This document shows, piece after piece, positions 29,301 to 52,151 of a stretch of DNA of 52,680 nt (positions are counted from its first letter, which is position 1; each line of letters opens with the position of its first letter). The notes below the pieces were generated by a model. That model was not told where the DNA came from. It did not search any database and saw nothing but the letters and a program-made list of their open reading frames with translations. The position numbers were made by a program, and so were the translations under genes. This DNA is from Bacteroidota bacterium (GTDB taxonomy: Bacteria; Bacteroidota; Bacteroidia; Bacteroidales; VadinHA17), in assembly GCA_025350595.1 (NCBI GenBank), contig JANXXP010000091.1, positions 1 to 52,680 of the forward strand, written 5' to 3'.

Positions 29301-30526
29301 CCATCGTCTCCATTCAGGTAAGATGGGGCAAAAATGATCTTAACTTTCGAATTTTTATCGTTATAAAGTTTATTTGATGCGATCCTGTTCAAAACCGGAT
29401 CAGAATGATCATAGTGGAGGCTGTGTGTAAGATATTTATCGCCCTGGTTAGCTGGTCCGTTATTGTAAAGAATATCCGAAATATCCTGGCGTGGTCCTTT
29501 GTGATAAGCAGGAATAAGTAAGAATGCAACACATTCCTTTTCGTTTTTATCATTGGAATTCAGCTCCCCCAGAGAGTCAATAAAAATGTCAATCCCTTTA
29601 TTCCTGAATTCATACCTTCCGCTGTTAACAATAAAAACACAATCATTGGAAAGCGGATAACCAAGAACTGCTTCAGCTACTTTCTTAAGTTTGTCTTTGG
29701 CTCTTTGTCTTACTTCTTCAAATTTGTCCTTCGCCGGTACAAAAGAATCTTCAAAGCCATTGGGGGTAACAATATCAACGTTTTTTCCAAGAAAATGACT
29801 GCATTCGTGGGAAGTTATCTCACTAACTGTTGTAAAAACGTCAGCCTCTGTGGCTGAAATTTTTTCGAGCGATTGTTTTGCTACAACGTTGAATTCTCGA
29901 GCTACCTGGGCAGGAATATATTCCTCCATTTTTCCATAAAGCGGTCGATTATTGCCTGCAATGCATCGTCCAAGCGCTGTTGCATGGGTTGTGAAAGAGG
30001 TGGCAATCCAGGGAGCATACTTTTTCAGATACAGGATCCCTGTTCCAGTCATCCACTCATGAAACTGAGCGATTATATTATGATGCTCATGATAAAAAGT
30101 GGTAAAACTTTCGATAAGTTTTCCGGCAGCATATCCAAACAGAGCGGGTTCAACGTAGTCCCATTGCCCGGTAATACTGTCTAGTTTATATGTTTCCCAG
30201 AATCCCGCAAAAATTTCATTCTGCTGTCCAAAATATGGAGTAAAGTCTAAAAGTATAACTATTGGTTTCCCGGCAATATTCCATCTCCCTGTTTTCACTT
30301 TTAATCCTTCAGAGGCAGCCCTGCTCTTCCAATCAATAAATAGCGTGTCGTCGGGAATGAATTCAGGATTTATAACATCTTCCCTCCATACATCCGGTCC
30401 GATAAGAATAAAATTATCCCCAAGCTCATTAACAATACTAAGTGCTTTTGTTGAGATTACCGTGTGTATACCTCCTACTTTATTGCATACTTCCCAACTT
30501 GTTTCAAAAATAAAATCAACCTTCAT
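26303..30526 (-). CDS. GT3 glycogen synthase fused to GT35 alpha-glucan phosphorylase (DUF3417-type)
   Basis: 1407 aa; N-term FIFETSWEVCNKVGGIHTVISTKA...FPSYYEPWGYTPLES; C-term NLWWSWNSEAELLF, YFSMEFGIHPCLKTYSGGLGILAGDYLKEASD, LEASGTSGEKAVMNG. Confidence 0.93.
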   Translation of the reverse strand: MKVDFIFETSWEVCNKVGGIHTVISTKALSIVNELGDNFILIGPDVWREDVINPEFIPDDTLFIDWKSRAASEGLKVKTGRWNIAGKPIVILLDFTPYFGQQNEIFAGFWETYKLDSITGQWDYVEPALFGYAAGKLIESFTTFYHEHHNIIAQFHEWMTGTGILYLKKYAPWIATSFTTHATALGRCIAGNNRPLYGKMEEYIPAQVAREFNVVAKQSLEKISATEADVFTTVSEITSHECSHFLGKNVDIVTPNGFEDSFVPAKDKFEEVRQRAKDKLKKVAEAVLGYPLSNDCVFIVNSGRYEFRNKGIDIFIDSLGELNSNDKNEKECVAFLLIPAYHKGPRQDISDILYNNGPANQGDKYLTHSLHYDHSDPVLNRIASNKLYNDKNSKVKIIFAPSYLNGDDGIFNLPYFDLLIGFDLSVFPSYYEPWGYTPLESLMFSIPTVTTSLSGFGLWVRNYFENPGNGISVIERTDNKEGMVIDEIRNFMSMFLGLNENEIKEAREKAHEVSRIAMWDSLVKYYYNAYQLALDHSSERREEPREFSRFVEAPGLHVRKPHQVPVWKDIYVQSDVPEKLAALKELANNLWWSWNSEAELLFKRMDPSQWEDVKHNPKLLLEKIDYKRLLVLEEDDDFVGDLKNVYDQFLVYKNRPDDKTRPTVAYFSMEFGIHPCLKTYSGGLGILAGDYLKEASDSNFGITGIGLLYRYGYFKQKLGPRGEQLSIYEAEEFSRLPINPIKDAKGNHLTVSLGWPGRTIRIRVWEAMVGKVRLILLDTDFDDNVSEDRTVTHYLYGGDNENRLRQELILGIGGIRALEALGLKPDLFHSNEGHSAFISLERLRSLITDQHLTFNQALEVVRSSTLFTTHTPVPAGHDAFDEDLLRKYISHYHSRLMISWDEMMALGRCEGDPDKKFNMSYLATRMSQEVNGVSKLHGEVSQEMFNKLWPGYLKEELFIGYVTNGVHHPTWTAPEWLELYKELTGTVHFDQTDRSLWERLYNVEDKRIYAIKTGLKKKLFANIRKRLQTDMIDKHVSPRTLLNISSHLDEKALTIGFARRFATYKRATLLFRDLDRLARIVNNPLKPVQFIFAGKAHPNDGGGQDLIKRIFEISQMPEFAGKVVFLENYDIEMAKYLVRGVDIWLNTPTRPLEASGTSGEKAVMNGTIHFSVLDGWWVEGYRAYAGWALPKKATFSNSDLQDDIDAETIYNMLEFEIVPAYYAFNDQGVPVEWMSLVKNTMVKIAPEFTMKRQIDDYYEKYYFKLFNRNKYLIENSFEKAKELAGWKNTMREEWDNIEVLNYSFEKAGENVYRSGLDYVAEIALDVKTIPKENVGVEFIITRRRKNGEHEFVASEEFKLISCKHGKCLYRAKLVPEKAGSFFYGIRIYPKHKDLPHKQDFYLLRWID

Positions 30527-30565
30527 TATCGTACAAAAATTTGTTTCACAATATTAATCTTCAAC

Positions 30566-32044
30566 TTATTTACTCTTTTTTTCTTTCTTAATTGGCTTTT
30601 TAGTGCCGGTTTTCTTTTTCGTAACAGATTTTGCTTTTGGATGTACTTCAATACTTTTCTTAACAGGAACCTTAGGCAAAACTTTGCTTGCCGGTTTTGC
30701 CGGTTTTGACGGTTTCTTTACTGTCATCCTGGAATTCTTCTTAACTAATTTTTCAATCTCAAATGCCTGTCTCTCTATAATCATATCCTTTTCTATGATC
30801 TGTGAACCGAGTTTGAATATCTGATCCTGCTCAGCTGATTCAGGAAAGTACTTTTTAAGTCTGATCTCAAAATCGCTGAGTACGTTCATATAATTCATGA
30901 AGGCATCATAGGGCGTTTCATAAGGATTGAAATATGCGTGTACTGCTCCGTCGGAAAAGAATTTTGTTGCCATGTAGTAAAAATGGTCGCTCGACTGGAG
31001 ATATTCCCAGTCTTTTCTTATCTGAACATCATCACATTTATTTACCTTTCCTGCCAAACTATACAATTTATCAAGAGCAGCAACCTGCAGTTCGTTTCCA
31101 TGCCATGCGGTTATATCGCGTTCTTCATCTGCCCAGGATATGGCTGATGGAATGTTTATTGCTGAAACTGGTTGTAATGAATCGGCAATCTCAGTAGGAG
31201 TTATAAATTTAAATGGTGTCTTTTTGAGAATAGCCCCGGGCATATGATATAGAAAATCAAATATTCCTGTCTCTTTCCAGTTGTGCTCCCCGAATGTCTC
31301 ATAATCGAGAAAAATATTTAAAAGTTCACTCTTAGGTGCCAGTTTATTTATCCATGTAGCATACTTTTCGGCTGTCAACGGCCACATATTCCACTCCCGG
31401 TTTGAAAACCGAAATGCAATATCATCACTTAAAACAAAGTTTCGCAAGAGTACTTTCAGACGTGGGTTGATTGAATTACAATACAGGAAGTTAGGACTCT
31501 TCCATCCTAAAACATGTTTGGCTCCCTCTGTGAGTATCGATTTAAAACCCATATCTGCTACCCAGGAACCTATTTCATCTGAGTATATTAATTCCGTATT
31601 TCTGAAAGAGGTAGGCTCCACTCCGAGAAATTCTTTTAACATCTCTTTGTGTTTATTGACCTGGCGTTCAAATTCACTTCTGCTTTTAATCGAAACAAGT
31701 GAGTGGGAATTTGTTTCACAAAGAAACTCCACCATACCAGTCTCAGCCAGCTTTTTAAAAGAATCCAGAACCTCAGGTGCATAAAGCCTGAACTGACTTA
31801 TTGCCAGCCCTGAAAGGCTAAACGTTACTTTAAATTTACCTTTATGTTTCTGAATGAGTTCTAAAATAATGTCATTCGCAGGGAGATAACATTTTTGAGC
31901 AATTTTTCTCATTATTGACTCATTCGAGAAATCATCATAATAATAATGATCATGTCCGATATCAAAAAACCTGTACCTCTTAAGACGGAAAGGTTGATGA
32001 ACCTGAAAATACAAACAAATCGCTTTTTTGCCTGATGCACTCAT
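30566..32044 (-). CDS. GH57 family alpha-amylase-like protein with basic C-terminal tail
   Basis: ICLYFQVHQPFRLKRYRF, FRNTELIYSDEI, NIFLDYETFGEHNWKETGIFDFL; C-term KPSKPAKPASKVLPKVPVKKS...KK. Confidence 0.9.
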   Translation of the reverse strand: MSASGKKAICLYFQVHQPFRLKRYRFFDIGHDHYYYDDFSNESIMRKIAQKCYLPANDIILELIQKHKGKFKVTFSLSGLAISQFRLYAPEVLDSFKKLAETGMVEFLCETNSHSLVSIKSRSEFERQVNKHKEMLKEFLGVEPTSFRNTELIYSDEIGSWVADMGFKSILTEGAKHVLGWKSPNFLYCNSINPRLKVLLRNFVLSDDIAFRFSNREWNMWPLTAEKYATWINKLAPKSELLNIFLDYETFGEHNWKETGIFDFLYHMPGAILKKTPFKFITPTEIADSLQPVSAINIPSAISWADEERDITAWHGNELQVAALDKLYSLAGKVNKCDDVQIRKDWEYLQSSDHFYYMATKFFSDGAVHAYFNPYETPYDAFMNYMNVLSDFEIRLKKYFPESAEQDQIFKLGSQIIEKDMIIERQAFEIEKLVKKNSRMTVKKPSKPAKPASKVLPKVPVKKSIEVHPKAKSVTKKKTGTKKPIKKEKKSK

Positions 32045-32047
32045 ATT

Positions 32048-33346
32048 CTAATACTTTTTATTCTCAACAACTCTATAATATATGTCTTTTACATGTCTGG
32101 CTGAGTTATCCCATTTAAGCCGGATAACTTCTTCTTTGCCATTTTTAATAAACATGTTAGCCAATGCCGGATAATTAAGGATACCATAAATTGCATCGGC
32201 CATTGCATCTATATCCCAAAAGTCGGTTTTTACAGCATGAGTAAGGATCTCGGCTACTCCCGACTGTTTACTTATTATTACCGGGACATTAGATTGCATT
32301 GCTTCAAGTGGAGAAATACCAAATGGTTCTGATACCGAAGGCATTATATAAACATCGCTCATGTCGAGCATTGTAAAAACGTCCGCCCCTTTAAGAAATC
32401 CGGTAAAATGAAACCGATCTGTTATTTTTAGCGCTGCAGCCCTTCGCATCATCTTTTCCATCATGTCACCCGAGCCGGCCATTACAAATCTTACATTGTC
32501 CATAACCTGTAAGACCTTATAAGCGGCTTCAATAAAATATTCAGGACCTTTCTGGAGGGTTATCCTGCCAAGGAATGTGACTACTTTTTCATCAAATCCT
32601 TTTTCAATTAAATGATTTTCTGAAATAAATACAGGTTCAACAGCATTATATACCGTTTCGACCTTATCAGGATTAATATTGTATTTGTTAATAACGATAT
32701 CCCTTGTAAGATTACTAACCGTGATTATTTTAGAGGCTGCATCCATTCCGCTCTTTTCGATCCGGTACACATCTGGATTGACACTCCCTCCACTGCGGTC
32801 AAAGTCTGTGGCATGAACATGAATAACAAGCGGTTTCCCCGACACTTCCATAGCTGCAATTCCGGCCGGATAAGCAAGCCAGTCGTGAGCATGAATAATA
32901 TCAAAATCATTTTCTTCTGCTATGACAGAGGCAACAACAGCATATTTGTATATTTCATCCATCAGGTTATTATCGTATCTGCCCGAGAAGTCTACTGTCC
33001 CTTTATCATTTGCGTGAACATAGAGGTTATACCCTGAGACTTCTGATCTTGTCATTTTCCAGAAATCTTCAGGATCAGTATAGGGAACAATTTTTGATGA
33101 GATCTCAATTTTTTCAAGCGGGCGCCTGAATCCTTTAAAATAAATCTGTTTGTAGGCCACAGGTATTTTGTTCGCACCAACAAGCCGTACTACAGACTGA
33201 TCCTCATCGCCCCATGCTTTTGGTACAACAAAGATCACTTCCAGATCATCAAGGGTAGCCATGCCTTTTGTTAAACCGTAACTGGCAGTTCCTAACCCGC
33301 CTGAGATGTGAGGCGGAAATTCCCATCCAAACATTAACACACGCAT
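32048..33346 (-). CDS. GT4 family glycosyltransferase (glycogen synthase-like)
   Basis: MFGWEFPPHISGGLGTASYGLTKGM, DIIHAHDWLAYPAGI, FLGRITLQKGPEYFIEAA, PSVSEPFGISPLEAM. Confidence 0.92.
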   Translation of the reverse strand: MRVLMFGWEFPPHISGGLGTASYGLTKGMATLDDLEVIFVVPKAWGDEDQSVVRLVGANKIPVAYKQIYFKGFRRPLEKIEISSKIVPYTDPEDFWKMTRSEVSGYNLYVHANDKGTVDFSGRYDNNLMDEIYKYAVVASVIAEENDFDIIHAHDWLAYPAGIAAMEVSGKPLVIHVHATDFDRSGGSVNPDVYRIEKSGMDAASKIITVSNLTRDIVINKYNINPDKVETVYNAVEPVFISENHLIEKGFDEKVVTFLGRITLQKGPEYFIEAAYKVLQVMDNVRFVMAGSGDMMEKMMRRAAALKITDRFHFTGFLKGADVFTMLDMSDVYIMPSVSEPFGISPLEAMQSNVPVIISKQSGVAEILTHAVKTDFWDIDAMADAIYGILNYPALANMFIKNGKEEVIRLKWDNSARHVKDIYYRVVENKKY

Positions 33347-33358
33347 ATCTTCCCTCAG

Positions 33359-35308
33359 TTATTGATTTTTATACTTAGTTTCAAGAAGATCTATAATTCT
33401 AAGCACTTCACCCACACTCCAGGCTTGCGAAATTGCTCCTTCCGGAAAATGCGGTGGATCTCCGTCATAGATTTCGGAAATTGTACTTACACCATGCTCG
33501 CTCATTACAGCTTCAAGACCATAAATTAATTTTTTAACCTTATTTACACCTTGCTGTCCATACACTTTTAACCATCCTTCGCAGAAGGGACCATAAAGCC
33601 ATGGCCAAACTGTGCCCTGGTGATAAGTACTATCCCTTTCTTCCTGATTACCTTTATATGTCCCCTGATACATCTTGTTCCCCGGAGAAAGGGTTCTTAA
33701 GCCCCTGGTTGTAACAAGGTATTTATCTGCAATATCCAGAACCTTTTTCATTTGTTCTTTGTCAAGCATTGAGAAAGGCAATGAAACAGCGATTACCATA
33801 TTAGGCCTTATAAAAGTGTTTTTGCCTTCTTCATCATTAACATAATCAGCCAGACAGCCAAATTTTTCGTCCCAGAATAAGTCAAGAAAAGATTTTTTTA
33901 TCAGTTCAGCCAGATATTCATATTCCGTGATAAACTTTTTATCCTTTTCGATCTTTGCCATTTCGAGTGAAAAGCAAACAGCATTATACCATAGAGCATT
34001 GATCTCAACGTCATAACCCCTTCTTGGGGTCACAGGAATTCCATTTACCACTGCATCCATCCACGTAAGAGATTTCCCTGGGGCATCAGCATAAATAAGT
34101 CCGTTTTCTCGCATGTGAATATTAAAAGCTGTGCCATTCTTAAATGCATTTAATACTGATTTTGCAGCAGAACCATATCTTTCCCAGCCATCAGTTCCTC
34201 CCTGTTCAATATATTGCTGAACAGCCCAAAAAAACCAGAGTGGGGCATCAACTGAATTAAATGCAGGATTGCTTTCGTTTCCCATATTCGGGAACAGGCC
34301 ATCTTTCATCTTTTCAACCTGAGTATCCATCACATCCCTGAAGAGAACGAGCTTATGTCTTGCTAATGCCAGACCAGGAATAGAGATGAAAGTGTCGCGG
34401 CCCCATGCTCCAAACCATGGGTAACCTGCAATAATTAAAGTTTTTCCTCCCCGCTTTTCAACAAATTGCTGGGCGGCATTTCTTAAACAATTAATATAAC
34501 TGTCTCTTGGAGTTTTACCAGTAACATTTTTGGTAAACTTCGGTTTAAATCCAGATGTCTTTTCCTCTTTGGTGGAAGCAGAAAAAACTATAATATCTCC
34601 TTCTTTTGCTTTAAATTCAAAGAAGCCCGGGGTAAAAAGATCTTCGGAAAAATCGTACCCCCGTTTTTGTTCTTCAATGTATTCCACACCAAGATACCAA
34701 TCGGGTACATGTACAAATTCAACCTTTGTTGAGAACTGCATATTTAATGAAGGGAAACCTTCATATAATTTCGATTTTATACCATTTTCAACTGGCTCAA
34801 CCTTTGTATTAGCAGTCAGGTTGGCATGTGTAAGCTGATGAATATTCCTAAAAGCAAGGAAGGGCCGTAGTTGTAATTTCATTGGCTCCGATGCTTCAAG
34901 AATAGAAATTCTCATAAGATACTGCTCTTCATAATGAACCAGTAATCTTTCCATCTTCAGAATTACTCCACCAACCCTGTATATTCTTGAGGGAATAGTA
35001 TCAGTGTTGAAGTCCTCCATATACTTATGTCCTTTTGGACTGAAATAATCTCCTTTGTATTTTCTTATGCCTGTATTAAAACTTTTATCCTTATTAACAA
35101 CTGTCAAATCGAGTGATGAAAGCAAAACAAATCTTTCGCCTCCCAGTTCGTCAACCGGACATACAAGCAGTCCATGATATTTACGGGTGTTGCATGCAAC
35201 AAGAGTAGTTGATGAGTAAGATCCGGCCCTGTTTGTACGGATTATTTCTCTCCCCAACGAATACTCAAGGTTTACTACCTGACTCTTCTCGAATTTAATG
35301 TAACTCAT
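33359..35308 (-). CDS. Amylo-alpha-1,6-glucosidase (glycogen debranching enzyme)
   Basis: SYSSTTLVACNTRKYHGLLV, AGYPWFGAWGRDTFISIPGLAL, DSTYHQGTVWPWLYGPFCEGWLK, ISEIYDGDPPHFPEGAISQAWSVGEVLR. Confidence 0.93.
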   Translation of the reverse strand: MSYIKFEKSQVVNLEYSLGREIIRTNRAGSYSSTTLVACNTRKYHGLLVCPVDELGGERFVLLSSLDLTVVNKDKSFNTGIRKYKGDYFSPKGHKYMEDFNTDTIPSRIYRVGGVILKMERLLVHYEEQYLMRISILEASEPMKLQLRPFLAFRNIHQLTHANLTANTKVEPVENGIKSKLYEGFPSLNMQFSTKVEFVHVPDWYLGVEYIEEQKRGYDFSEDLFTPGFFEFKAKEGDIIVFSASTKEEKTSGFKPKFTKNVTGKTPRDSYINCLRNAAQQFVEKRGGKTLIIAGYPWFGAWGRDTFISIPGLALARHKLVLFRDVMDTQVEKMKDGLFPNMGNESNPAFNSVDAPLWFFWAVQQYIEQGGTDGWERYGSAAKSVLNAFKNGTAFNIHMRENGLIYADAPGKSLTWMDAVVNGIPVTPRRGYDVEINALWYNAVCFSLEMAKIEKDKKFITEYEYLAELIKKSFLDLFWDEKFGCLADYVNDEEGKNTFIRPNMVIAVSLPFSMLDKEQMKKVLDIADKYLVTTRGLRTLSPGNKMYQGTYKGNQEERDSTYHQGTVWPWLYGPFCEGWLKVYGQQGVNKVKKLIYGLEAVMSEHGVSTISEIYDGDPPHFPEGAISQAWSVGEVLRIIDLLETKYKNQ

Positions 35309-39852: not shown

Positions 39853-40398
39853 TCAGCTGCCTCCGGTCAGTATAGATTTCATTTCATTATGGCATTTGAG
39901 ACAGATGTTAGCACTTTTTTGATCTATATCTTCAACATACGTACTTGACCTCATTACACAGCTTGGAATGTGACAGTGTATTAAGCCCAGAGTATGCCCG
40001 AGTTCGTGAATAGCCTCTTTGATGAACCGATCAATTATAAGCTTATCATTAGAATTCATCCCATAACGCTCATTGCTTAATCTGTAAAGAGAGGCAATTC
40101 CCGTTCTTCCATTTAGATAAGCTTGACCATAAATATAGGTCAGGATTGGTATAAAAAGATCAACACTAAATAATCCAAGTGTTTTTGTGTCTTTTGAACC
40201 GAACAAAATATCAACTTCTTTCAGTAGTTTAACTCCGTTGTATTGTCTTCTGACAGGGTCGTAAAATTCGCTTAAATCAAGATGTCCTTCTTTAATATTC
40301 ACAGAAGCATGAAATTCCAGTTTTACAGCTTCAGCGACATTCTTAAGAAAATATTCCTCGAAATATCCGAATGAGATCAATGTAATATTAATCTCCAT
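39853..40398 (-). CDS. Archaemetzincin-like zinc metalloprotease (M54-type)
   Basis: HELGHTLGLIHCHIPSCVMRSST...ICLKCHNEM matches HExxHxxGxxHCxxxxCVM plus CxxC. Confidence 0.88.
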   Translation of the reverse strand: MEINITLISFGYFEEYFLKNVAEAVKLEFHASVNIKEGHLDLSEFYDPVRRQYNGVKLLKEVDILFGSKDTKTLGLFSVDLFIPILTYIYGQAYLNGRTGIASLYRLSNERYGMNSNDKLIIDRFIKEAIHELGHTLGLIHCHIPSCVMRSSTYVEDIDQKSANICLKCHNEMKSILTGGS

Positions 40399-41728
40399 GT
40401 TTTAAACTGTACTTTGAAATCTTATTATAAAGCGTTACTCTGTCTACCTGTAAGGCTTTTGCCGCACGGGAAATATTCCAGTTATATTTATTTAGGATTT
40501 GAAGTATATGCAATTTCTCGAGATCATCAAGACTCTCAATGGAATTCGTCATCAGGGTTTTTTCAAGAGGCAGATCCTTAAGAGAAATTTTCTTTCCATT
40601 TCCTACAACAATTGCCCTCTCGATCATATTTTCAAGTTCCCTTACATTCCCCGGGAAATTAAATTCTTCCAGACGGTTAAGCGCTGCAGAATCGATGGTG
40701 ACCGGAGGTCTGTTCATAGATGTGCAATACTTTTTTATGAAATATTCAACCAGCAGCGGAATGTCGTCAATTCGCTCACGTAAAGGAGGAACATGAATAT
40801 TTACAACGTTAAGCCTGTAATATAAATCCTCCCTGAATATTCCCTTTTCAACCATTCCTTTCAGATCTCTGTTTGTTGCACAGATAACCCTGAAATCAGA
40901 AGATATTTCCTTATTCCCTCCTACCCTTATAAACTTCTTTGACTCCAGAACACGAAGCAGATCAATCTGCATCTTCATTGAGATAGTTGCAATCTCATCA
41001 AGAAAAATGGTGCCATTATCAGCCATCTCAAAGCGGCCTTTGCGGTTATACATAGCCCCCGTAAAAGCTCCTTTTTCATGTCCGAACAATTCACTTTCCA
41101 ATAAACTTTCAGTCAATGCTCCACAATGTACACTAACCAAAGGAAAAAACTTCCTGGGAGAATTTGAATGAATAGCTTTGGCAACCAGCTCTTTGCCAGT
41201 ACCACTTTCTCCTGAAATCACAACCGAGGAATTAGATTGTGCAACACTCTCAATATCTTTAAGAACCACCTTTATGGCTTCACTTTTGCCAATCAGATCT
41301 TCTACATTTTCAAGCGATACGACCTTCTTTTTCAGGTTTTCATTTTCTTCAACAAGGGTAATTTGCTTTGAAGCATTCCTGATAAGATGCGAAAGGTCGT
41401 CAGGATCAAAAGGCTTCGTTACATAATCAAATGCCCCGTCTTTCAGGGCCTGAACTGCTGTATCGACAGTAGCAAAAGCTGTCATTACAATTACTATGGA
41501 ATCGGATTTCAGAAGTTTTATTCTTCTGAGCATTTCCAAACCGTCCATTCCTGGCATTTTTATATCAGCCAGAATTATGTCGAAGCTGTCGGATTCAAGA
41601 ATTGATAGCGCTCTGTTTGCATTTTCTGCACATTCCACACGATATCCGTCTTCTATGAACCAGTTATACAATGAGTCTCTTACAGATTCCTCATCGTCCA
41701 CAATTAGTATTGATATCTTTTTCGCCAT
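40388..41728 (-). CDS. NtrC-type sigma-54-dependent response regulator
   Basis: Receiver ILIVDDEESVRDSL...ADIKMPGMDG; GESGTGKELVAKAIH, GAFTGA, Fis-type HTH NISRAAKALQVDRVTLYNKI. Confidence 0.96.
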   Translation of the reverse strand: MAKKISILIVDDEESVRDSLYNWFIEDGYRVECAENANRALSILESDSFDIILADIKMPGMDGLEMLRRIKLLKSDSIVIVMTAFATVDTAVQALKDGAFDYVTKPFDPDDLSHLIRNASKQITLVEENENLKKKVVSLENVEDLIGKSEAIKVVLKDIESVAQSNSSVVISGESGTGKELVAKAIHSNSPRKFFPLVSVHCGALTESLLESELFGHEKGAFTGAMYNRKGRFEMADNGTIFLDEIATISMKMQIDLLRVLESKKFIRVGGNKEISSDFRVICATNRDLKGMVEKGIFREDLYYRLNVVNIHVPPLRERIDDIPLLVEYFIKKYCTSMNRPPVTIDSAALNRLEEFNFPGNVRELENMIERAIVVGNGKKISLKDLPLEKTLMTNSIESLDDLEKLHILQILNKYNWNISRAAKALQVDRVTLYNKISKYSLKHGD

Positions 41729-41740
41729 TGATTGTTTTCC

Positions 41741-43411
41741 TTAAATCCTGATTATAGGCAAAGTTATTGATATTGTAGTTCCCTTTCCAAGTTCTGATTT
41801 AACTTCGAGTTTACCATTATGACTTTTTATTATGCCATGAACTATTGCAAGACCCAACCCGATACCACTGGTATCATGTTTCGTTGAAAAGAATGGTTGA
41901 AAAATATGTGGAAGGTCATCCTCTGGTATCCCTATTCCGTTATCAGCTATCTCAATTATTATTGATTCACTATCAGGGTTATTGGTAGAAATTATAATTT
42001 CTCCGTTTTCCAGAACTGCTTCCGAAGCATTTACAATTAATGCTACACAAGCCTGTTTAATCTGATTTGGACTGCAGAATATCAGATCCGATTTTGCCTT
42101 AAAATCCGTCAAAAAACTGATATTCGCAATCTTAATCGGATGGGTCATTAACTCGAAGGTATCCATTAATATTTTATGAAGATGTTTCGATTCAAAATCT
42201 TCCTGATCCTTTCTCGAAAAATCGAGCAAACCCTTCACTATCTCACCACAACGTTTTGTTTCATTTTCAATAAGCTTTAAATGTTTTAACATTGTTTCCT
42301 TTTTGGCATCATCCAGGACAGGATTACTAAGCTGTTTATGAATCAGTTTAGTATAGATAAGAATACCCGATAGAGGATTATTTATTTCGTGAGCTACCGA
42401 AGATGATAATTTTCCCAGAGATGCGATTCTTTCAATATGAATCAGCTCGTTTTGTGCAGCACCTAATTCTTCTGACTTTTTCTGAACCTTATATTCAAGC
42501 TGTTGTGACCAGTTTCGTAATTCTTCTGTAGCTGTCTGAAGGTTATCAAGCATATCATTAAATGCCTGCGAAACCATCCTCATGTCGTCTAACTGATTGG
42601 ATCTTATTTCAAGTCTGGTATTTTTATTTCCGTTTGCTACAGCCAAACTGGCTTTAATGATATCATTCAATGGATCTTTAATCTTCTTTCTTGTAAATAA
42701 AATCAGAACTGAGACCAACAGAATTGTTGAAAGTGTCGCTAATAGATAAAACTTTGTTGAAGATTTTGCAACTGCATTATCCAGGTCATACAAAGGCATT
42801 TTTATAATCAGTGAACCAAGCACTTCATCACTTTCCTGATGTGCATGACAGGCACTTGTGTAGCAGGATTTTTCATTTAGAATGGGTGACCTGATTATGA
42901 GATGACGATGACTGTTATCATTCTTGTTCATGCTGCATTCACTCTTAACATCTATGATACGGTAAGACTTTTCTTTCCTTGGAAACATAGACTGAAGATT
43001 TTTATGACAAAGGAGACAGTTCGGATTACTGTGTGCTGCTGTATCAGAAGTAAAAGATGAATAGACAAGATTGTCGTGCACATCATACATGTTAACATCG
43101 TCAATACCCGACATAGTATTTATGATATCAAGTGTACTCTGAAGTTTGCTCTTGTCGTTTTCGAGCATTGAATGGTATAGAGAACCTTCTACAATTGATC
43201 CGATATTATTACCGTTCTGACGAATGACCGTATTAAGATTCTGCTCATAAACTGACCGGAATATGAAACCAAATAACACAAACAGAATAACAGATGACAG
43301 AGTTATGATATAGACAACCCTGCTGTAGATAGAAGATTGGAATTTAATATACTTTTTAAGGAATGTTTTTACCTTATTTTCTTTGACGGTTGAATTTTCT
43401 GACAGACCCAT
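41741..43411 (-). CDS. Membrane sensor histidine kinase with c-heme-type motifs in the periplasmic domain, HAMP
   Basis: Two TMs flank a domain with CLLCH (43004-43018) and CYTSACH (42845-42865); HisKA SSVAHEINNPLSGILIY; HATPase DNGIGIPEDDLPHIFQPFFSTK; start set at 43411. Confidence 0.93.
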   Translation of the reverse strand: MGLSENSTVKENKVKTFLKKYIKFQSSIYSRVVYIITLSSVILFVLFGFIFRSVYEQNLNTVIRQNGNNIGSIVEGSLYHSMLENDKSKLQSTLDIINTMSGIDDVNMYDVHDNLVYSSFTSDTAAHSNPNCLLCHKNLQSMFPRKEKSYRIIDVKSECSMNKNDNSHRHLIIRSPILNEKSCYTSACHAHQESDEVLGSLIIKMPLYDLDNAVAKSSTKFYLLATLSTILLVSVLILFTRKKIKDPLNDIIKASLAVANGNKNTRLEIRSNQLDDMRMVSQAFNDMLDNLQTATEELRNWSQQLEYKVQKKSEELGAAQNELIHIERIASLGKLSSSVAHEINNPLSGILIYTKLIHKQLSNPVLDDAKKETMLKHLKLIENETKRCGEIVKGLLDFSRKDQEDFESKHLHKILMDTFELMTHPIKIANISFLTDFKAKSDLIFCSPNQIKQACVALIVNASEAVLENGEIIISTNNPDSESIIIEIADNGIGIPEDDLPHIFQPFFSTKHDTSGIGLGLAIVHGIIKSHNGKLEVKSELGKGTTISITLPIIRI

Positions 43412-43505
43412 TGCATGATTCCTATAATATTTTATTCTGCCTGCTAAAATTACCAATAAAATTTCATTTTACAGCTCCGGGGAAGAATACAATTTTTCAG
43501 AAGAA

Positions 43506-44266: not shown

Positions 44267-45496
44267 TCAATCCTTATCATGCACCCATGAAGGGGATTCC
44301 CTTAACACCGGCATCCTGTTAATTACCCATCTGAAAATCCAGATTTCAGTAAATATTACAGTAAGTGTGACAACCAGTTCCATCCATGTTGGAACATATC
44401 TTATGGCGGCATCCCATCTGAAACCGATTACGGTAACATTAAGCCTGTTCAGTATAACCCCCAGCATTGTGAGAATTGCCGCTACTTTAATCAACAGGAT
44501 ATTATTCCTGCGATAACCGTAAAAGAATAACATCATTGGCAGAAGCACAAAACCAAACATCTCAAGAAGATACCAATATCCCATTGGTGTATTTAACAGG
44601 TCCCATCGCTTTCCGTGAACAAAGATGAGAACGTGTAAGAAAAAGTATGCAAACATGGCAACAGCGCAGATCTTTGATAGTCCTGAAATAATCGAATTAT
44701 GCGCCTTATGGTTTTTCTCACTTATCTGGTTGGCAAAGACTCTATTGCTTATTGACCCTTCAAAAATTACCATAGAAAGTCCTGCAAAAACACTTGAAAC
44801 AAAAAACAATACCGGAATAAATTCAGAATACCATAGCGGATGTATTTTATCTTTAGCCATCAGATAGAGAGCACCTAACCCGGATTGATGAAGTGTGGAT
44901 AAAGTGATGCCAAAAATAACTGCTGCAATTGTCATTCCTGACAGGATTTTTCTTGCACGTTTTGCGCCCAGCCACTCTGCAACGGCAGGTGAAAACTCAA
45001 TTAGCTGAGCGATCATATATAGCAGAAAGTGCCAGGCAACCAGGAATAAAACAGAACTTGTTCCAAAACTGTTTCCTATAATCGGATTGATGACGTTCCA
45101 TGGACGTCCCAAATCGAGTAGTAAGGCTCCCGCATAAAAGACATAAGCCAGAAAACCATTCAGGACAGTAATCCTTACAATGGAATGGTATTTCTGCATA
45201 TTCAAAATATAAACCATAAATGTCAGTACATAAGCTCCTCCTGCAAATGCGACGCCTGTAACAACATCAAACCCAATCCATAAACCCCATGGCACTTCCT
45301 GTGTAAGGTTTGTGACTGCCCCCAGCCCTTTCCAGAAACGAATGATAATAATGATAAGCCCTAATGCAATTACCGGTATTGAAATGATATTAAACGGAGT
45401 CAGAAATTTGCCCCTGGGTTTTAATTCACCGGAAAGGAACTTCCAGATTGATTTACCATCATTATCTTTTGCGACAGCAAAGTTTATATTACTCAT
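44267..45496 (-). CDS. NrfD/HybB-type polytopic membrane protein
   Basis: WIGFDVVTGVAFAGGAYVLTFMVYILN, GALLLDLGRPWNVINPII, FILSTLHQSGLGALYL-like HQSGLG motif; start set at 45496. Confidence 0.9.
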   Translation of the reverse strand: MSNINFAVAKDNDGKSIWKFLSGELKPRGKFLTPFNIISIPVIALGLIIIIIRFWKGLGAVTNLTQEVPWGLWIGFDVVTGVAFAGGAYVLTFMVYILNMQKYHSIVRITVLNGFLAYVFYAGALLLDLGRPWNVINPIIGNSFGTSSVLFLVAWHFLLYMIAQLIEFSPAVAEWLGAKRARKILSGMTIAAVIFGITLSTLHQSGLGALYLMAKDKIHPLWYSEFIPVLFFVSSVFAGLSMVIFEGSISNRVFANQISEKNHKAHNSIISGLSKICAVAMFAYFFLHVLIFVHGKRWDLLNTPMGYWYLLEMFGFVLLPMMLFFYGYRRNNILLIKVAAILTMLGVILNRLNVTVIGFRWDAAIRYVPTWMELVVTLTVIFTEIWIFRWVINRMPVLRESPSWVHDKD

Positions 45497-46352
45497 TTTC
45501 TTCCTCGTTTGATTGATTAGTTTTGGTTGCTTCACGTATACCTAATAAAATGGCAGGCCATAAAACAAATATCGTTGGTACGCTATAAAGAAATCCTTTC
45601 GATAACTCCGGATAAGATTTTGATTGTAGCGAAGTATTTAAACCAAGTTCATCAAACGGGACGGCTGCAATACTTAAGAATCCAGTTCCTCCTGCTTCGT
45701 GCTCTCCGTATATATGATCAAAATATTGATTTGGATTTTCAACTATTCTTTTTCGGGCTTCTTTGATTAGATCTCTGCGTTTTCCGAAAACCAACGCCTC
45801 AGCAGGGCAATTCTCGACACAAGCTGGAACTTTTCCCTCTGTCAGCCTTGAATAACACATATTGCATTTCTCAATTTTCGGATTTGCACTGTGATATTCA
45901 AATTTTGGAACATCGAAAGGACATGAAACCATGCAATAACGACATCCCATGCACTTATTACCTCTCCAGATTACTGGCCCCTCTTTTGTTTTATACATTG
46001 CCTGGGTTAGGCAGGCGGCAGTGCATGCGGGCTCATTACAATGCATACACTGCTTTTTCATAAAAGCTTCCCCTTTAGAGGATTTGAATGCATTAACTAC
46101 GGTCCGGTGCGATTCATCTGTTTTTCTCACCACTCCTGCCTCAATTGTACCAACAGGTGCAGGCAATCCATTTGCCTCAGCGCATGAGGATTCGCAGGTT
46201 TGGCAACCTGCGCACCGGGTTGAATCGTACAGTACACCTGAGAATTCGATACTTGTTCCTTTTCCAGGTATCGCTTTTAATTCCTTCCCTATGGCAAGTG
46301 TGGCTCCTGTAACTCCAAGAACTTTAAAAAAGTGCCTTCTGTTTAAAGCCAT
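45489..46352 (-). CDS. Tat-exported HybA-like four-cluster 4Fe-4S ferredoxin with C-terminal TM
   Basis: Tat signal NRRHFFKVLG; CAGCQTCESSC, CMHCNEPACTAAC, CMGCRYCMVSC, CNMCYSRLTEGKVPACVENCPAEAL; C-term TM TIFVLWPAILLGI. Confidence 0.92.
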   Translation of the reverse strand: MALNRRHFFKVLGVTGATLAIGKELKAIPGKGTSIEFSGVLYDSTRCAGCQTCESSCAEANGLPAPVGTIEAGVVRKTDESHRTVVNAFKSSKGEAFMKKQCMHCNEPACTAACLTQAMYKTKEGPVIWRGNKCMGCRYCMVSCPFDVPKFEYHSANPKIEKCNMCYSRLTEGKVPACVENCPAEALVFGKRRDLIKEARKRIVENPNQYFDHIYGEHEAGGTGFLSIAAVPFDELGLNTSLQSKSYPELSKGFLYSVPTIFVLWPAILLGIREATKTNQSNEEENE

Positions 46353-46372: not shown

Positions 46373-48085
46373 TTAATATAATTCGTAGAACCAGATTTGT
46401 CTTGATGGATCAATGAATTTTGTCTGAAAATCTTCCCATTCTTCCGGTCCCAGGTTTGAAAGTACACCATCCCTGAGTTCCCCGCCATCCTGAAGAGCAA
46501 GAGGCGCCAGACTGAGTGAATCAGCGTTGAGTGCTGCGGCAAGAAAATCTTTTAGTCTCGAAAATTCACTTTTAATATACTGCCTCTGTTTATCTGCCAT
46601 AAATAATAACTGATTTTCTCTGAGCCAGTTGGAAGGCTCAATTTTATAAACCCAACCCTCATTGTACGGTGAAGAATTTATTATTGATGAATCATTATCA
46701 AGTGAGGTGTTTAACTCTTTAATAATACCTGAGACAGGCGAATAAAGATTTAACTGCTTGCCATTTTGAATAATGGACATAATCGGCTCTCCTTTTTTTA
46801 TAGAATCACCCTTATCTTTCATTTTGATGCGGGTAATGGCTCCTGTGATACGCTGCATAAAATCATCAATACCTACTTTTACAATACCATTTTGTTCCAT
46901 AAAAGCCCATGTATGTGTTTTATCGAAGTATAATCCTGCAGGCACAATCATCTTATTTTCATCAAGCACAGGTTGTAATATCGCAACCGGAGTCTTAACT
47001 AAAGATTTAGTATTCCTGAATAACCTTAGAATAAAGTTTATAATAAGACCAAGCAGGATCAATACAGAAATTATCGCCAAAGTTGACTTTAACAAAGACT
47101 TATCGACTGAAGTTCCAGGATAAACCTTTGCTTCATATAACTTATCAACAGTTGAAAGTCTTTCACTTGCTATAAGATCGGTATATCCATTAATATAAAG
47201 GAATTGTTGTCCGTCAGTCAGTACCCATTTCATAAAGGCAATTTCAGTTTCATTTTTTGGTGCGTTTAAAGAGACAGAATAAATATTACTGATTAAAGTT
47301 TTTGGATATTTACCAATCCAGACCCCTCTTGATAAAACATTGAAATCATCATAGATATTTTCATTATAATCAATCATTCCGTTTCCGTTTCTGTCTAATG
47401 GCAAAAGCTTAATATTCTCAGCAATTGTTTGTTTATTGATATCAACTATGTTAACCATTTTGCAAAACCCAATCGCCAGGGGATCTTTCTGAATAGCAGC
47501 AATCATACTTTCTCCGTTTTCTACTTTAATTCCTTCATGTTTATTCGGATCTGTTTTGAGAAATCCTGCCAATCCTTTTGATACTGATTCATCATTAATC
47601 CAATAATAGTGAACTGGTGAAGTCTGCTTATTCTTCATCAAAGTTCCCCAATTTTTAGAATCAATATTATTTATGAAACCGGAAAGAGCATCGGGAGAAA
47701 TTCCATGTTTTGATATTTCCTCCAGGAAGGGATTTTTTGAATTTATTATAGGAACAATAACATCGCGGCCAATAATAACTTTCCATAATGACTCACGGTT
47801 AGCTCCTGAAAAATATGCACTGGAAATAAAACCATTATTCCCTTTTTCAATTAAACTGCTAACCATTTTTGTATCAGAAACGGTTAACACCTTAATTTTC
47901 TTATCAGGATAAATTTTATTGTACTCATTTGCCAATTTAATTGACAGCTTAGATAAATCAGGAGTACTGAATATCTTTAATGAATCTCCTGCCTGGCTTT
48001 TGTTTTCTCTTACTAAATCCATACTGCTTGAATAGCTGTAATTCATTAATAGAATGCCGATTAATAAATAAATTGCCCTTTTCAT
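46373..48085 (-). CDS. PstS-like solute-binding domain - TM - GcvH-like domain fusion
   Basis: Signal peptide; SLKIFSTPDLSKLSIKLANEYNKIYP...GFCKMVNI; TM STLAIISVLILLGLIINFIL; HTWAFMEQNGIVKVGIDDFMQRITGAI...IIQNGKQLNLYSPVSGII; LQDGGELRDGVLSNLGPEEWEDFQTKFI. Confidence 0.88.
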   Translation of the reverse strand: MKRAIYLLIGILLMNYSYSSSMDLVRENKSQAGDSLKIFSTPDLSKLSIKLANEYNKIYPDKKIKVLTVSDTKMVSSLIEKGNNGFISSAYFSGANRESLWKVIIGRDVIVPIINSKNPFLEEISKHGISPDALSGFINNIDSKNWGTLMKNKQTSPVHYYWINDESVSKGLAGFLKTDPNKHEGIKVENGESMIAAIQKDPLAIGFCKMVNIVDINKQTIAENIKLLPLDRNGNGMIDYNENIYDDFNVLSRGVWIGKYPKTLISNIYSVSLNAPKNETEIAFMKWVLTDGQQFLYINGYTDLIASERLSTVDKLYEAKVYPGTSVDKSLLKSTLAIISVLILLGLIINFILRLFRNTKSLVKTPVAILQPVLDENKMIVPAGLYFDKTHTWAFMEQNGIVKVGIDDFMQRITGAITRIKMKDKGDSIKKGEPIMSIIQNGKQLNLYSPVSGIIKELNTSLDNDSSIINSSPYNEGWVYKIEPSNWLRENQLLFMADKQRQYIKSEFSRLKDFLAAALNADSLSLAPLALQDGGELRDGVLSNLGPEEWEDFQTKFIDPSRQIWFYELY

Positions 48086-48146: not shown

Positions 48147-48290
48147 AATAGAAAAATAAGGCTTAATGACTTGTATTTATGCACATTAACACATGTCTTG
48201 CGAATTGAGAAAATAATGTATAGTGTTGAATTTACTTACACTGATTATTTTTTAGCTTCCCATACCCTTTAAATCAAAGAGAAATCGAGT

Positions 48291-48370
48291 TGTTGTATAT
48301 ATTTTCAACAGCTGTTGATATTTGCAACACTTTCGCAATATTTTGGCTTAATTTGCCAATACTTTCGCAA
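48291..48370. promoter_or_regulatory. Candidate upstream activator-binding array
   Basis: TGTTG 48291-48295, palindrome TCAACAGCTGTTGA 48305-48318, CAACA 48325-48329, ACTTTCGCAA direct repeats 48329-48338 and 48361-48370, TTGGC/GCCAA inverted repeat 48343-48359. Confidence 0.55.
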
Positions 48371-48519: not shown

Positions 48520-48903
48520 TTAAAATTTAAGCACCTGGGTTATAGAGCCCTCCATTTCGACTATTTTAAAAGGCTTGCTGATGTATTTTTGAATTAATCC
48601 GATATTCATTGCTTCTCTTATCTCAGGTGTAAAATCAAATCCGGTCAGTAAAAAGAATATAAGAGCTGGAAAATCATCTTTGGCAAGTTTTATAAACTCC
48701 AACCCATTCATCTCAGGCATTCTCATATCGCTTATTACAAGTACAATCTCAGGATTGGAATGAAGCAGAGCTAATCCTTCCTTTCCTGAAAAAGCGGTAA
48801 ATATTTTGTATTTCTTCTGAAAATTAAATTTAAACAGCATGAGGTTAGTCGGCTCATCATCAACATACAGAATTGATTTATTATCGATCATATTTGAGTT
48901 CAT
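48520..48903 (-). CDS. Stand-alone CheY-like response regulator
   Basis: SILYVDDEPTNLMLFKFNF, VISDMRMPEMNGLEFI, KYISKPFK; overlaps the kinase gene by 4 nt. Confidence 0.93.
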   Translation of the reverse strand: MNSNMIDNKSILYVDDEPTNLMLFKFNFQKKYKIFTAFSGKEGLALLHSNPEIVLVISDMRMPEMNGLEFIKLAKDDFPALIFFLLTGFDFTPEIREAMNIGLIQKYISKPFKIVEMEGSITQVLKF

Positions 48904-51900
48904 CTAATTATTGGCAGTGAAATTGTCACAGTTGTCCCTTTTCCAATTTCAGACCGGATATCAAGAGTACCATTAAGCTCCATTATTATCTGAAAACTTA
49001 TGGATAACCCAAGGCCTTTCCCTATTCCCTGCTCCCTTGTTGTGAAAAACGGATCAAATATCTTATTTAGAAATTTATTGTCAATTCCATGGCCGGTATC
49101 ATTAACAATAACTATGATTGACGAATCATCCAAACAGGTTGAGATTGTAATTATTCCCTTTCCCTCAATTGCCTGAACTGCATTGGTCAGTATATTCATT
49201 AATGCCTGATGCAATTTGCCTTCGTTTCCAAATAGCGTAAAAACATCCTGAGTAAAATGTTTTTGAATTTCAATCCTGTTTCTTGTCTGGTTAATCAGCA
49301 TAATCAGACAATTATTGATAATCGTATGAATGTCACAGTTTTCTGTAATTGATTCTGTTTGCCGGTTAAAACTATTCAGACTCTTAACAATTTCGGTAGC
49401 TCTGGTCAGTCCAATATTAACAGCATCTATAAGAGGGGTAACATTTTCAGTATGTTCTTTCAGATTATCATTAAAGTAGGATTCAATTCCCTGGATCCCT
49501 CCATTAATAAAGTTCAAAGGATTATTTATTTCATGCGCCACTCCGGAAGCAAGTATTCCTATTGAAGCCATTTTTTCAGACTGAAACAACTTTTCCTGGG
49601 TCTCTTTCAATGAATAGAGTGTTGCTTCCAGTTCTTCTCTCTGTTTATTTAACTCTTCAACGTTTTGAATCAACTCTTCGTTTGTAGTCTGTAACTCCTC
49701 TTTTTGCTCAGTTACTTCATTAGTCTTTTCTCTGACAATAATTTCAAGCTGTCTCTTTTGGTTTTTCAATGATGTAATACGCAACTTGTAAATGCTGTAT
49801 AAAATCATTAAGACAAATGCAATGGCAAATATTCTAAATATAAATGTTTTCCACCATGGAGGTCTGATTACAAATGGATAAGAATATTCCTTGCTAAGAT
49901 ATCCTTCACTATTCATGGCTTTAACTTTAAAAGTATAATTACCATGCGACAGGTTTCCATAAGATGCTTCATTTCGTGTACTGAAGACGCTCCAATTTTC
50001 ATCTAAACCCTCAAGTTTGTATTGATATTTTATCTTTTTGTTGTGCTTCTGGGTAATTCCAATAAAATTAAAAGTTATGAAATTGTTTTTGTAACCCAGA
50101 CTTAAATTAACAGGCAACCCATACCATTTTGTTATTCCCCTAAAATGAATATCACTAACACGAACCCCGTTTCCCATAATAAGGTTGGTGTCCGGATTAT
50201 TAATAAAATATTCCCAGTTAAAATTATTATTAAATAAACCGATACCTGTTAACTGAATATTAGGAGGAATACTATCTGGTCTTTCTCCTTCGGGATGATA
50301 AACAGTAAGATTTTCGTTTGCTCCTATCCATATAGTCCCGTCTGTTACTTCTAACATTGCTTCTCTGTTGCAGCCAATTCCAAGAAATCCATCTTCATAA
50401 GTGAAGTTTTCAAATAAAACTGGTTGCGATTCATTTGTTCCGTCAGAAATTCCATCTTTTATCGCTTTATTAATATTGTAATACCTTGTTAAGTTATATG
50501 ATGAAAGTTTACTCAACCCAAATCGTGTCCCAAACCAAATATTATCTTTTTTGTCAAGTAAAACTGAATATACGTAATCACTCATCAGTCCTTCTTTCTC
50601 AGTAAATTTAGTGAATGTTTTACCATTGTATTCCGATACACCTCCCCCATTAGTTATAAACCAAAGGTTACCGCTTTTATCCTGTACAATTCCGTAAACA
50701 TAATTGTTTGTCAATCCATCTTTTTTGGAAAATTGTGTAAAAGAATTACCATCGTATTTTGAGACCCCGCCGCCCTCAGTTCCGAACCATATATTGTCTT
50801 TACTATCCTGAAAAATACTAAAAACACGATTATTTATTAACCCCTCTTTAGTAGTAAAATTTGTAAATGATAATCCGTTGAATTTGCTTACTCCTGCCGT
50901 TGTTCCAAACCACATATTTCCGACTTTATCCTGAAGAATTGACATAACACGGTTACCAATTAATCCTTCTTTTTCTGTAAAATGGGTAAAGAAAATTCCA
51001 TCAAATTTATCCACTCCTCCTCCATCAGTACCAAACCAAATATTTCCAGTTTTGTCTTGTAAAATACAATAAACACAGTTATTACCTAAGCCCTCATTTT
51101 CGGAATAATTACTAAATGATCTGCCATCATATCTGGATACTCCATGGCGCTCAGTGCCAAACCAAAGATATCCTTTGCTATCTTCTAGTATACTATTTAC
51201 CCGATTATCGTTTAGTCCCTCTTTTTCAGTGAAATGGGTAAATAATTCTCCGTCGTATTTTGATAAGCCACCTCCATCTGTACCAAACCACAAAATACCA
51301 TATTTCCCCTGGAATATACAATTAACAGTGTTATTGCTGAAACCTTCTTTTTCTGTAAAATGAGTAAATGATTTGCCATCGTATTTTGAGACACCCCCTC
51401 CATCTGTACCAAACCAAAGATTCTTGTTTTTGTCCTTAAACATACTTTTTACAAGATTATTACTTAAGCCTTCCTTTACTGTAAAATGAGTAAAAGATTT
51501 CCCATCGTATGCTGATACCCCTCCTCCATACATACCAAACCAAATCTTACCGTCTTCATCCTGCAGAATACTGCAGACATGATTATTACTCAAGCCTTCC
51601 TTTTCAGTGAAATGTGAAAATGATTTCCCATCGAATTTAATCACACCTTCTCCATTAGTGCCAAACCAAAGGTTATCGCGTTTATCCTGAAAAATAGAAT
51701 ATATACATTTGTTGCTTAAACCTTCCTTCTTTGAAAATTTCGTAAAGTATTTCCCATCAAATTCTGATACTCCTCCTCCATCTGTACCAAACCAGATATT
51801 TCCTGTAGTGTCTTGAAGTATATTGTAAACACGATTATTGCTTAATCCTTCATTCTCTGTAAAATGGGTAAAGAATTTCCCGTCATATTTTGTAACTCCT

Positions 51901-52151
51901 CCACCATTGGTCCCGAACCATAAATTACCGCTTTTGTCTTCAAGGATACTATAAACTTTATTATTGCTTAAGCCTGATTTTTCAGTAAAATTAGTAAATG
52001 ATTTACCGTCATATCTTGATACTCCGCCTAAAGTTCCAATCCAAAGATTCCCATTTCTATCTTGCAGCAAACATGTTACCTGATTATGATTTAACCCCTG
52101 AAGCTTGCTTAACGAACTGAAATTATATGGGTTGGGATCTCTTAGAGACAC
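48900..52151 (-). CDS. Two-component regulator propeller sensor histidine kinase (main ORF; true N-terminus lies upstream in another frame)
   Basis: 13 propeller repeats of the type WFGTDGGGVSKYDGKSFTHFTEKEGLSNN; YYY domain; TM; coiled coil; HisKA ASGVAHEINNPLNFINGG; HATPase. Confidence 0.93.
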   Translation of the reverse strand: MSLRDPNPYNFSSLSKLQGLNHNQVTCLLQDRNGNLWIGTLGGVSRYDGKSFTNFTEKSGLSNNKVYSILEDKSGNLWFGTNGGGVTKYDGKFFTHFTENEGLSNNRVYNILQDTTGNIWFGTDGGGVSEFDGKYFTKFSKKEGLSNKCIYSIFQDKRDNLWFGTNGEGVIKFDGKSFSHFTEKEGLSNNHVCSILQDEDGKIWFGMYGGGVSAYDGKSFTHFTVKEGLSNNLVKSMFKDKNKNLWFGTDGGGVSKYDGKSFTHFTEKEGFSNNTVNCIFQGKYGILWFGTDGGGLSKYDGELFTHFTEKEGLNDNRVNSILEDSKGYLWFGTERHGVSRYDGRSFSNYSENEGLGNNCVYCILQDKTGNIWFGTDGGGVDKFDGIFFTHFTEKEGLIGNRVMSILQDKVGNMWFGTTAGVSKFNGLSFTNFTTKEGLINNRVFSIFQDSKDNIWFGTEGGGVSKYDGNSFTQFSKKDGLTNNYVYGIVQDKSGNLWFITNGGGVSEYNGKTFTKFTEKEGLMSDYVYSVLLDKKDNIWFGTRFGLSKLSSYNLTRYYNINKAIKDGISDGTNESQPVLFENFTYEDGFLGIGCNREAMLEVTDGTIWIGANENLTVYHPEGERPDSIPPNIQLTGIGLFNNNFNWEYFINNPDTNLIMGNGVRVSDIHFRGITKWYGLPVNLSLGYKNNFITFNFIGITQKHNKKIKYQYKLEGLDENWSVFSTRNEASYGNLSHGNYTFKVKAMNSEGYLSKEYSYPFVIRPPWWKTFIFRIFAIAFVLMILYSIYKLRITSLKNQKRQLEIIVREKTNEVTEQKEELQTTNEELIQNVEELNKQREELEATLYSLKETQEKLFQSEKMASIGILASGVAHEINNPLNFINGGIQGIESYFNDNLKEHTENVTPLIDAVNIGLTRATEIVKSLNSFNRQTESITENCDIHTIINNCLIMLINQTRNRIEIQKHFTQDVFTLFGNEGKLHQALMNILTNAVQAIEGKGIITISTCLDDSSIIVIVNDTGHGIDNKFLNKIFDPFFTTREQGIGKGLGLSISFQIIMELNGTLDIRSEIGKGTTVTISLPIIR

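Follow-up and report, generated by a model that had tools for sequence, protein, structure and literature searches.

A stretch of 52,680 nucleotides from contig JANXXP010000091.1 of a Bacteroidota bacterium, referred to here as the window, encodes a protein in which a domain resembling the phosphate-binding protein PstS is joined to one resembling GcvH, and raises the question of what such a fusion might do. A reading made from the sequence alone (the sequence-only reading) had suggested that ligand binding in the periplasm could be coupled through one TM helix to a lipoyl-type domain in the cytoplasm. That description left out the operon context, which holds most of the interest of this locus.

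Architecture and topology of the fusion protein

The reading frame on the minus strand is open from an ATG, and its features are collected in Table 1; the signal peptide is predicted from hydropathy and a predicted helix only. Residues 385-506 of the product matched Pfam GCV_H (E=1.2e-26), and residues 32-253 matched PBP_like_2 with E=0.0023, which is under the family cut-off. A family profile built from 18 relatives matched H-proteins in the PDB (1onl, E=1e-22) as well as PstS proteins (4gd5, E=2e-9). In the AF2 model (mean pLDDT 71.6) a PBP domain (residues 34-316 approximately), a helix (329-357) and a GcvH fold follow one another. When this model was used in Foldseek, the phosphate-binding PstS group ranked first (4jwo, E=9e-15) and H-protein 1onl was also matched (E=4e-9, rmsd 2.2 Å over 100 columns). 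The build proposed in the sequence-only reading, a 570-aa frame with signal peptide, PstS-type fold, one TM and GcvH fold, was thus confirmed: profile and Foldseek agreed on the N-terminal SBP fold, Pfam, profile and Foldseek on the C-terminal GcvH/lipoyl fold, and structure prediction left neither the SBP fold nor the lipoyl barrel missing.

The TM helix starts at residue 336 and has a mean hydropathy of 2.7. Counted per 15 residues, K and R amount to 3.9 after the helix and 1.2 before it, and the count after exceeds the count before in 91 of 99 fusion sequences, a set that includes some duplicates. Since basic residues are enriched after the TM, the PBP domain is placed outside and the GcvH-like domain in the cytoplasm, which agrees with the topology proposed earlier.

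So odd an architecture in a draft MAG might also arise from a chance fusion or an assembly chimera. It is, however, identical in 17 aligned relatives with 33-70% identity, many of them on long contigs, and because many independent assemblies share it at this level of identity a chimera is excluded and the probability of this explanation is negligible.

Table 1. Features of the fusion gene, its operon and its upstream region (nucleotide positions refer to the window)
Feature	Position	Strand	Residues	Remarks
Fusion ORF, 570 aa	46373..48085	-		predicted signal peptide, degenerate PstS-like domain, TM, GcvH-like domain, conserved tail
Periplasmic PstS-type domain	47126..47989	-	33-320 (about)	phosphate-binding loops lost
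EF-hand-like loop DRNGNGMIDYNE	47360..47395	-	231-242	key positions kept in 83-88 of 88 fusions
Single TM helix	47018..47080	-	336-356 (about)	basic residues on cytoplasmic side
Cytoplasmic GcvH-like domain	46568..46933	-	385-506	
Codons G442-K443	46757..46762	-	442-443	Gly in lipoyl-lysine column, Lys at +1; both invariant, 93 fusions
C-terminal tail	46376..46567	-		LQDGGEL...W.DFQ..F motif, common to second TM-GcvH
HmcB-like periplasmic Fe-S protein	45489..46352	-		twin-arginine-type signal; NCBIfam HmcB 323 bits, below cut-off of 420
HmcC-like NrfD-type membrane subunit	44267..45535	-		NCBIfam HmcC 405 bits, below cut-off of 550
Second TM-anchored GcvH-like protein, 236 aa	43506..44216	-		AF2 mean pLDDT 80; same shifted Lys
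Sensor histidine kinase	41741..43456	-		CxxCH and Cx4CH heme-type motifs in extracytoplasmic part
Sigma-54-dependent response regulator (NtrC/ZraR type)	40388..41728	-		
Archaemetzincin-family metalloprotease	39853..40398	-		NF033823 over cut-off
Sigma-54-type promoter TGGCACTATAGTTGAA	48131..48146	-		TGGCAH-N5-TTG conserved upstream of fusion
Upstream site TGTAAGTAAATTCAACA	48224..48240	-		putative enhancer-binding site of regulator
Upstream site TGTATATATTTTCAACA	48294..48310	+		
Third, weaker upstream site TGTTGATATTTGCAACA	48313..48329	+		

Loss of the lipoyl-lysine position

Aligned with E. coli GcvH, all 93 fusions (93/93) carry Gly in the lipoyl-lysine column, and in all 93 the next residue is Lys. 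Among 70 second TM-GcvH proteins the same column is occupied by G in 65, D in 3, E in 1 and N in 1, never by K, and the +1 position by K in 65, R in 4 and N in 1. AF2 models of the fusion and of the second TM-GcvH show a tight NG turn right before the shifted Lys (441-442 in the fusion, then K443). The canonical GcvH of the same genome, encoded elsewhere, retains K in this column. A one-position shift of the lysine reportedly blocks lipoylation of E2 lipoyl domains, as Wallis and Perham are said to have found in 1994. The loss of the lipoyl-lysine position is established at the level of sequence, and since the column is Gly in all fusions a role as lipoyl carrier is unlikely; a working carrier was rejected as a candidate on account of this column. 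K443 is nonetheless invariant in every fusion, which argues for some role of this residue.

In a tree of 64 domains, K occupied the lipoyl column in only 3 of the 62 non-canonical ones. The GcvH domain of the fusion and the second GcvH formed sister groups (support 0.999), so that the PBP domain was probably gained in this lineage after a duplication. All GcvH-like domains scanned scored over the Pfam GCV_H cut-off, and the fusion missed the NCBIfam GcvH equivalog cut-off (73.7 vs 115.85 bits). Fold and sequence family (PF01597) are therefore common to GcvH and the fusion domain, but the latter lacks the lipoyl-lysine column, is TM-anchored and carries the extra LQDGGE tail, and its operon contains no gcv genes. 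LbpA of the sHdr pathway is likewise a GcvH paralogue recruited to redox metabolism; unlike the fusion, it can be lipoylated, and its lysine is strictly conserved throughout the authors' alignment of 95 proteins (PMC6067878); no hdr cluster is present at the window operon.

The PstS-derived domain has lost its phosphate loops

Stand-alone PstS homologues, one of them from a pst-type gene cluster of the same genome, contain the loops ISGAFALYP, GGAGKG and RSDxxGAA. The Arg of RSDxxGAA is present in 8/8 stand-alone homologues, whereas the fusions mostly have I, L, V or T at this column, and Arg is not among its six commonest residues in 88 fusions. The final Gly of GGAGKG is a gap in 88/88 fusions. 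An EF-hand-like loop of the form D-x-N-x-N-G-x-I-D-x-x-E is retained, with D in 87, N in 86, N in 86, G in 83, D in 83 and E in 88 of the 88 fusions at successive key positions; the DxNxNGxxDxxE loop also occurs in most stand-alone proteins and is common to the fusions and the Bacteroidota PstS homologues. In these alignments the loss of the phosphate loops is established, while the calcium-type loop was kept under selection and may bind calcium. A normal PstS is also encoded in this genome, in a pst-type gene cluster; the fusion shares the PstS fold, but is without phosphate loops, membrane-anchored and outside a pst operon. The candidate role of phosphate sensor was ruled out by the loss of these loops.

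Binding of phosphate (or another anion) coupled to a working lipoyl carrier would fit the correct assignment of both folds and an invariant Lys only one residue from the canonical site. It is nevertheless very improbable, as the lipoyl column holds Gly, the shifted Lys becomes R or N in 5/70 second GcvH proteins, the working relative LbpA strictly retains its lysine, and the PBP domain is devoid of phosphate loops. The coupling of ligand binding to a lipoyl-type domain that had been proposed is therefore not supported for this protein.

A conserved operon with redox and regulatory genes

The gene order is strongly conserved and consists of the fusion, an HmcB-like Fe-S protein, an HmcC-like NrfD protein, the second TM-GcvH, a kinase with heme motifs, a sigma-54 regulator and an archaemetzincin. 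The fusion is nearly always the first gene of the operon, and the archaemetzincin (window 39853-40398) the last in nearly all loci. Where 8.5 kb or more of downstream sequence was available (55 loci), the kinase was found in 53, the regulator in 52, the protease in 52 and HmcC in 49. All 67 kinases examined contain one CxxCH, and 65 contain Cx4CH as well. Just upstream of the operon and on the same strand, a large beta-propeller-type sensor kinase and a stand-alone receiver are encoded (window 48520-52151).

The HmcB- and HmcC-like neighbours resemble the Hmc complex of Desulfovibrio and HybAB, but the fusion and the TM-GcvH are found instead of the multiheme HmcA, and both Hmc-like proteins score under the equivalog cut-offs. 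A multiheme gene is absent from the window operon and present in some relatives. It is conceivable, though doubtful, that the fusion is a structural subunit of an Hmc/Nrf-like quinone:periplasmic oxidoreductase, in which the PBP-derived domain would take the place of HmcA and serve for docking in the periplasm, and both GcvH-like domains would support HmcC from the cytoplasm in the manner of the NqrA and RnfC barrel-sandwich domains. The adjacency of fusion, HmcB, HmcC and second GcvH in most loci is consistent with this role, as are weak NqrA_N barrel-sandwich matches to related domains; the fusion, however, contains no redox cofactor motif.

A sigma-54-type promoter precedes the fusion gene

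Upstream of the fusion, 71/77 loci carry the motif TGGCAH-N5-TTG, which the antisense strand shows in 0/77. Its -12 element is TTGAW in most loci, which departs from the canonical TTGCW. Further upstream, a TTCAACA-type half-site is present as well in 68/77 loci; one to five copies of the half-site occur in 74/77 upstream regions, and the surrounding sequence forms the dyad TGTWKA-W4-TTCAACA. In G000 and G049, both fully listed, clusters of at least two upstream sites were found at the fusion operon only. At 13/18 type-A operons from other parts of the phylum a sigma-54-type site of similar or higher quality was found, against 1/18 on the antisense strand at the same score; one of these operons has a perfect site, TGGCACTATGGTTGCT.

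Kinase, NtrC-type regulator and -24/-12-type promoter are all present, as in a sigma-54 two-component operon. In the self-regulated sigma-54 envelope operons of the ZraPSR and Psp type, an NtrC/ZraR-like regulator and a kinase likewise accompany a sigma-54-type promoter in front of an effector gene. The effector in the fusion operon differs in being PBP-TM-GcvH plus a redox module, and the kinase in its heme motifs. With the sites assigned from position and conservation only, the regulator would drive its own operon, perhaps only that one. TGGCAC-N5-TTGAW occurs at 9 sites elsewhere in G000; since that genome encodes about six sigma-54 activators, these sites are attributed to none in particular. 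A wider regulon was considered and rejected, as single upstream-site matches elsewhere were mostly background-like (44 in G000 vs 16 for a reversed control pattern). A single palindromic match to the upstream-site motif, located at a recQ-like gene's 5' end (window 3997-4013), is probably due to chance.

Distribution and variant loci

The fusion was found in about 24 of the 146 genomes searched in its own order. Among 84,980 species genomes scanned, 256 relatives turned up; the 80 best of them all bear Bacteroidota titles and overlap partly with the roughly 24 genomes of the order. In a survey of the phylum, 50/395 genomes had a match, the own genome being counted. Elsewhere in the phylum the operon opens with a TM-GcvH that has no PBP domain; HmcB and HmcC come next, then in many cases a soluble GcvH-like protein, and finally kinase, regulator and protease.

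Some loci consist of fusion, kinase, regulator and protease without HmcB, HmcC and the second GcvH. HmcC was not found anywhere in 13/13 genomes picked for such a locus and was found in 6/7 controls, a test that is weakened by the incompleteness of MAGs. A strict Hmc-subunit role is weakened by these genomes, which keep the fusion together with the regulatory genes. The seventh control, G065, has in place of HmcBC a multiheme cytochrome c together with a cytochrome b561 that is joined to the second GcvH; along with the adjacency of HmcBC in most loci, this exchange favours the subunit role. At L040:9412-11690, HmcB/HmcC give way to a multiheme cytochrome c and, after it, a cytochrome b561 that carries the second GcvH-like domain as a fusion.

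In G125, a TM-GcvH without PBP lies directly before kinase, regulator and protease. At L189 and L191, receiver domains are fused to GcvH-like domains as identified by Pfam, and a heme-motif kinase, a protein with 13 CxxCH motifs and HmcB/HmcC-like genes adjoin; the frames lie at L189:9243-10400, L189:10490-11281, L191:8038-8844 and L191:8888-10048. About 25 frames in the phylum survey are of similar length, judged by length only. At L136:1493-6539, a 531-aa protein with receiver and GcvH-like domain is encoded directly upstream of HdrC/HdrB/HdrA-like genes, which were named by eye.

The fusion might also be a sensor whose sole, direct target is the heme-motif kinase, like accessory proteins of the ZraP/CpxP type: its periplasmic domain would bind a ligand or misfolded protein and its GcvH-like domain would signal to the kinase or the regulator. 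The minimal loci, the position of the PBP-less protein of G125 and the receiver-GcvH fusions are in line with this role. We consider it unlikely, since it explains the conserved HmcBC module and second GcvH (49/55 loci) less well.

A proposed transmembrane adaptor in a probably self-regulated operon

Architecture, lost cofactor position, lost phosphate loops and conserved operon are established from the sequences, and the architecture is well supported; the mechanism that we infer from them is as follows. We favour, at slightly less than an even chance, the reading of the fusion as a transmembrane adaptor or sensor that derives from GcvH, carries no lipoyl group and belongs to a self-regulated sigma-54 two-component operon watching the quinone/periplasmic redox state or the envelope. 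The kinase would sense through c-type heme, and the regulator would bind the paired upstream sites and drive the operon. The PBP-derived domain may bind a protein or a non-phosphate ligand, with its loop stabilised by calcium, and could signal its state across the membrane by way of the TM. For the GcvH-like domain we propose docking of HmcC, the second GcvH-like protein and/or the kinase or regulator, and no role as cofactor carrier. The HmcC-less loci, the PBP-less TM-GcvH of G125, the receiver-GcvH fusions, which point to signalling and away from a subunit, and the promoter favour this signalling/adaptor role. With HmcB and HmcC present in most loci, a plain subunit role retains some, though lower, probability.

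More tentatively, the variants could belong to a phylum-wide signalling or bioenergetic system, in which a cofactor-free GcvH fold would act as a switch on NrfD-type quinone modules, either transmembrane or carried by a receiver, under the control of a heme-sensing kinase and a sigma-54 circuit of its own; in Bacteroidales, this system would have recruited a phosphate-binding protein turned calcium-dependent sensor. If the reading that we favour is right, GcvH, known from textbooks as a lipoyl carrier, has a large branch without cofactor that serves signalling or assembly on membrane redox complexes, and a periplasmic binding protein has moved from transport to a membrane-anchored, cytoplasm-coupled role. 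Automatic annotation would label such cofactor-free domains as glycine cleavage protein H.

The single components are known. In the open literature searched, no description of the operon or of receiver-GcvH fusions was found, nor of PBP-TM-GcvH combined with cofactor-free GcvH on receivers and beside NrfD-type modules; a review of NrfD proteins does not mention GcvH (PMC8076601). Being compact, recurrent and probably self-regulated, the operon lends itself to direct tests of its input (heme redox, ligand) and output. Elsewhere in the window, inspection of the ORFs revealed a gene cluster for glycogen/alpha-glucan metabolism (24249-35308).
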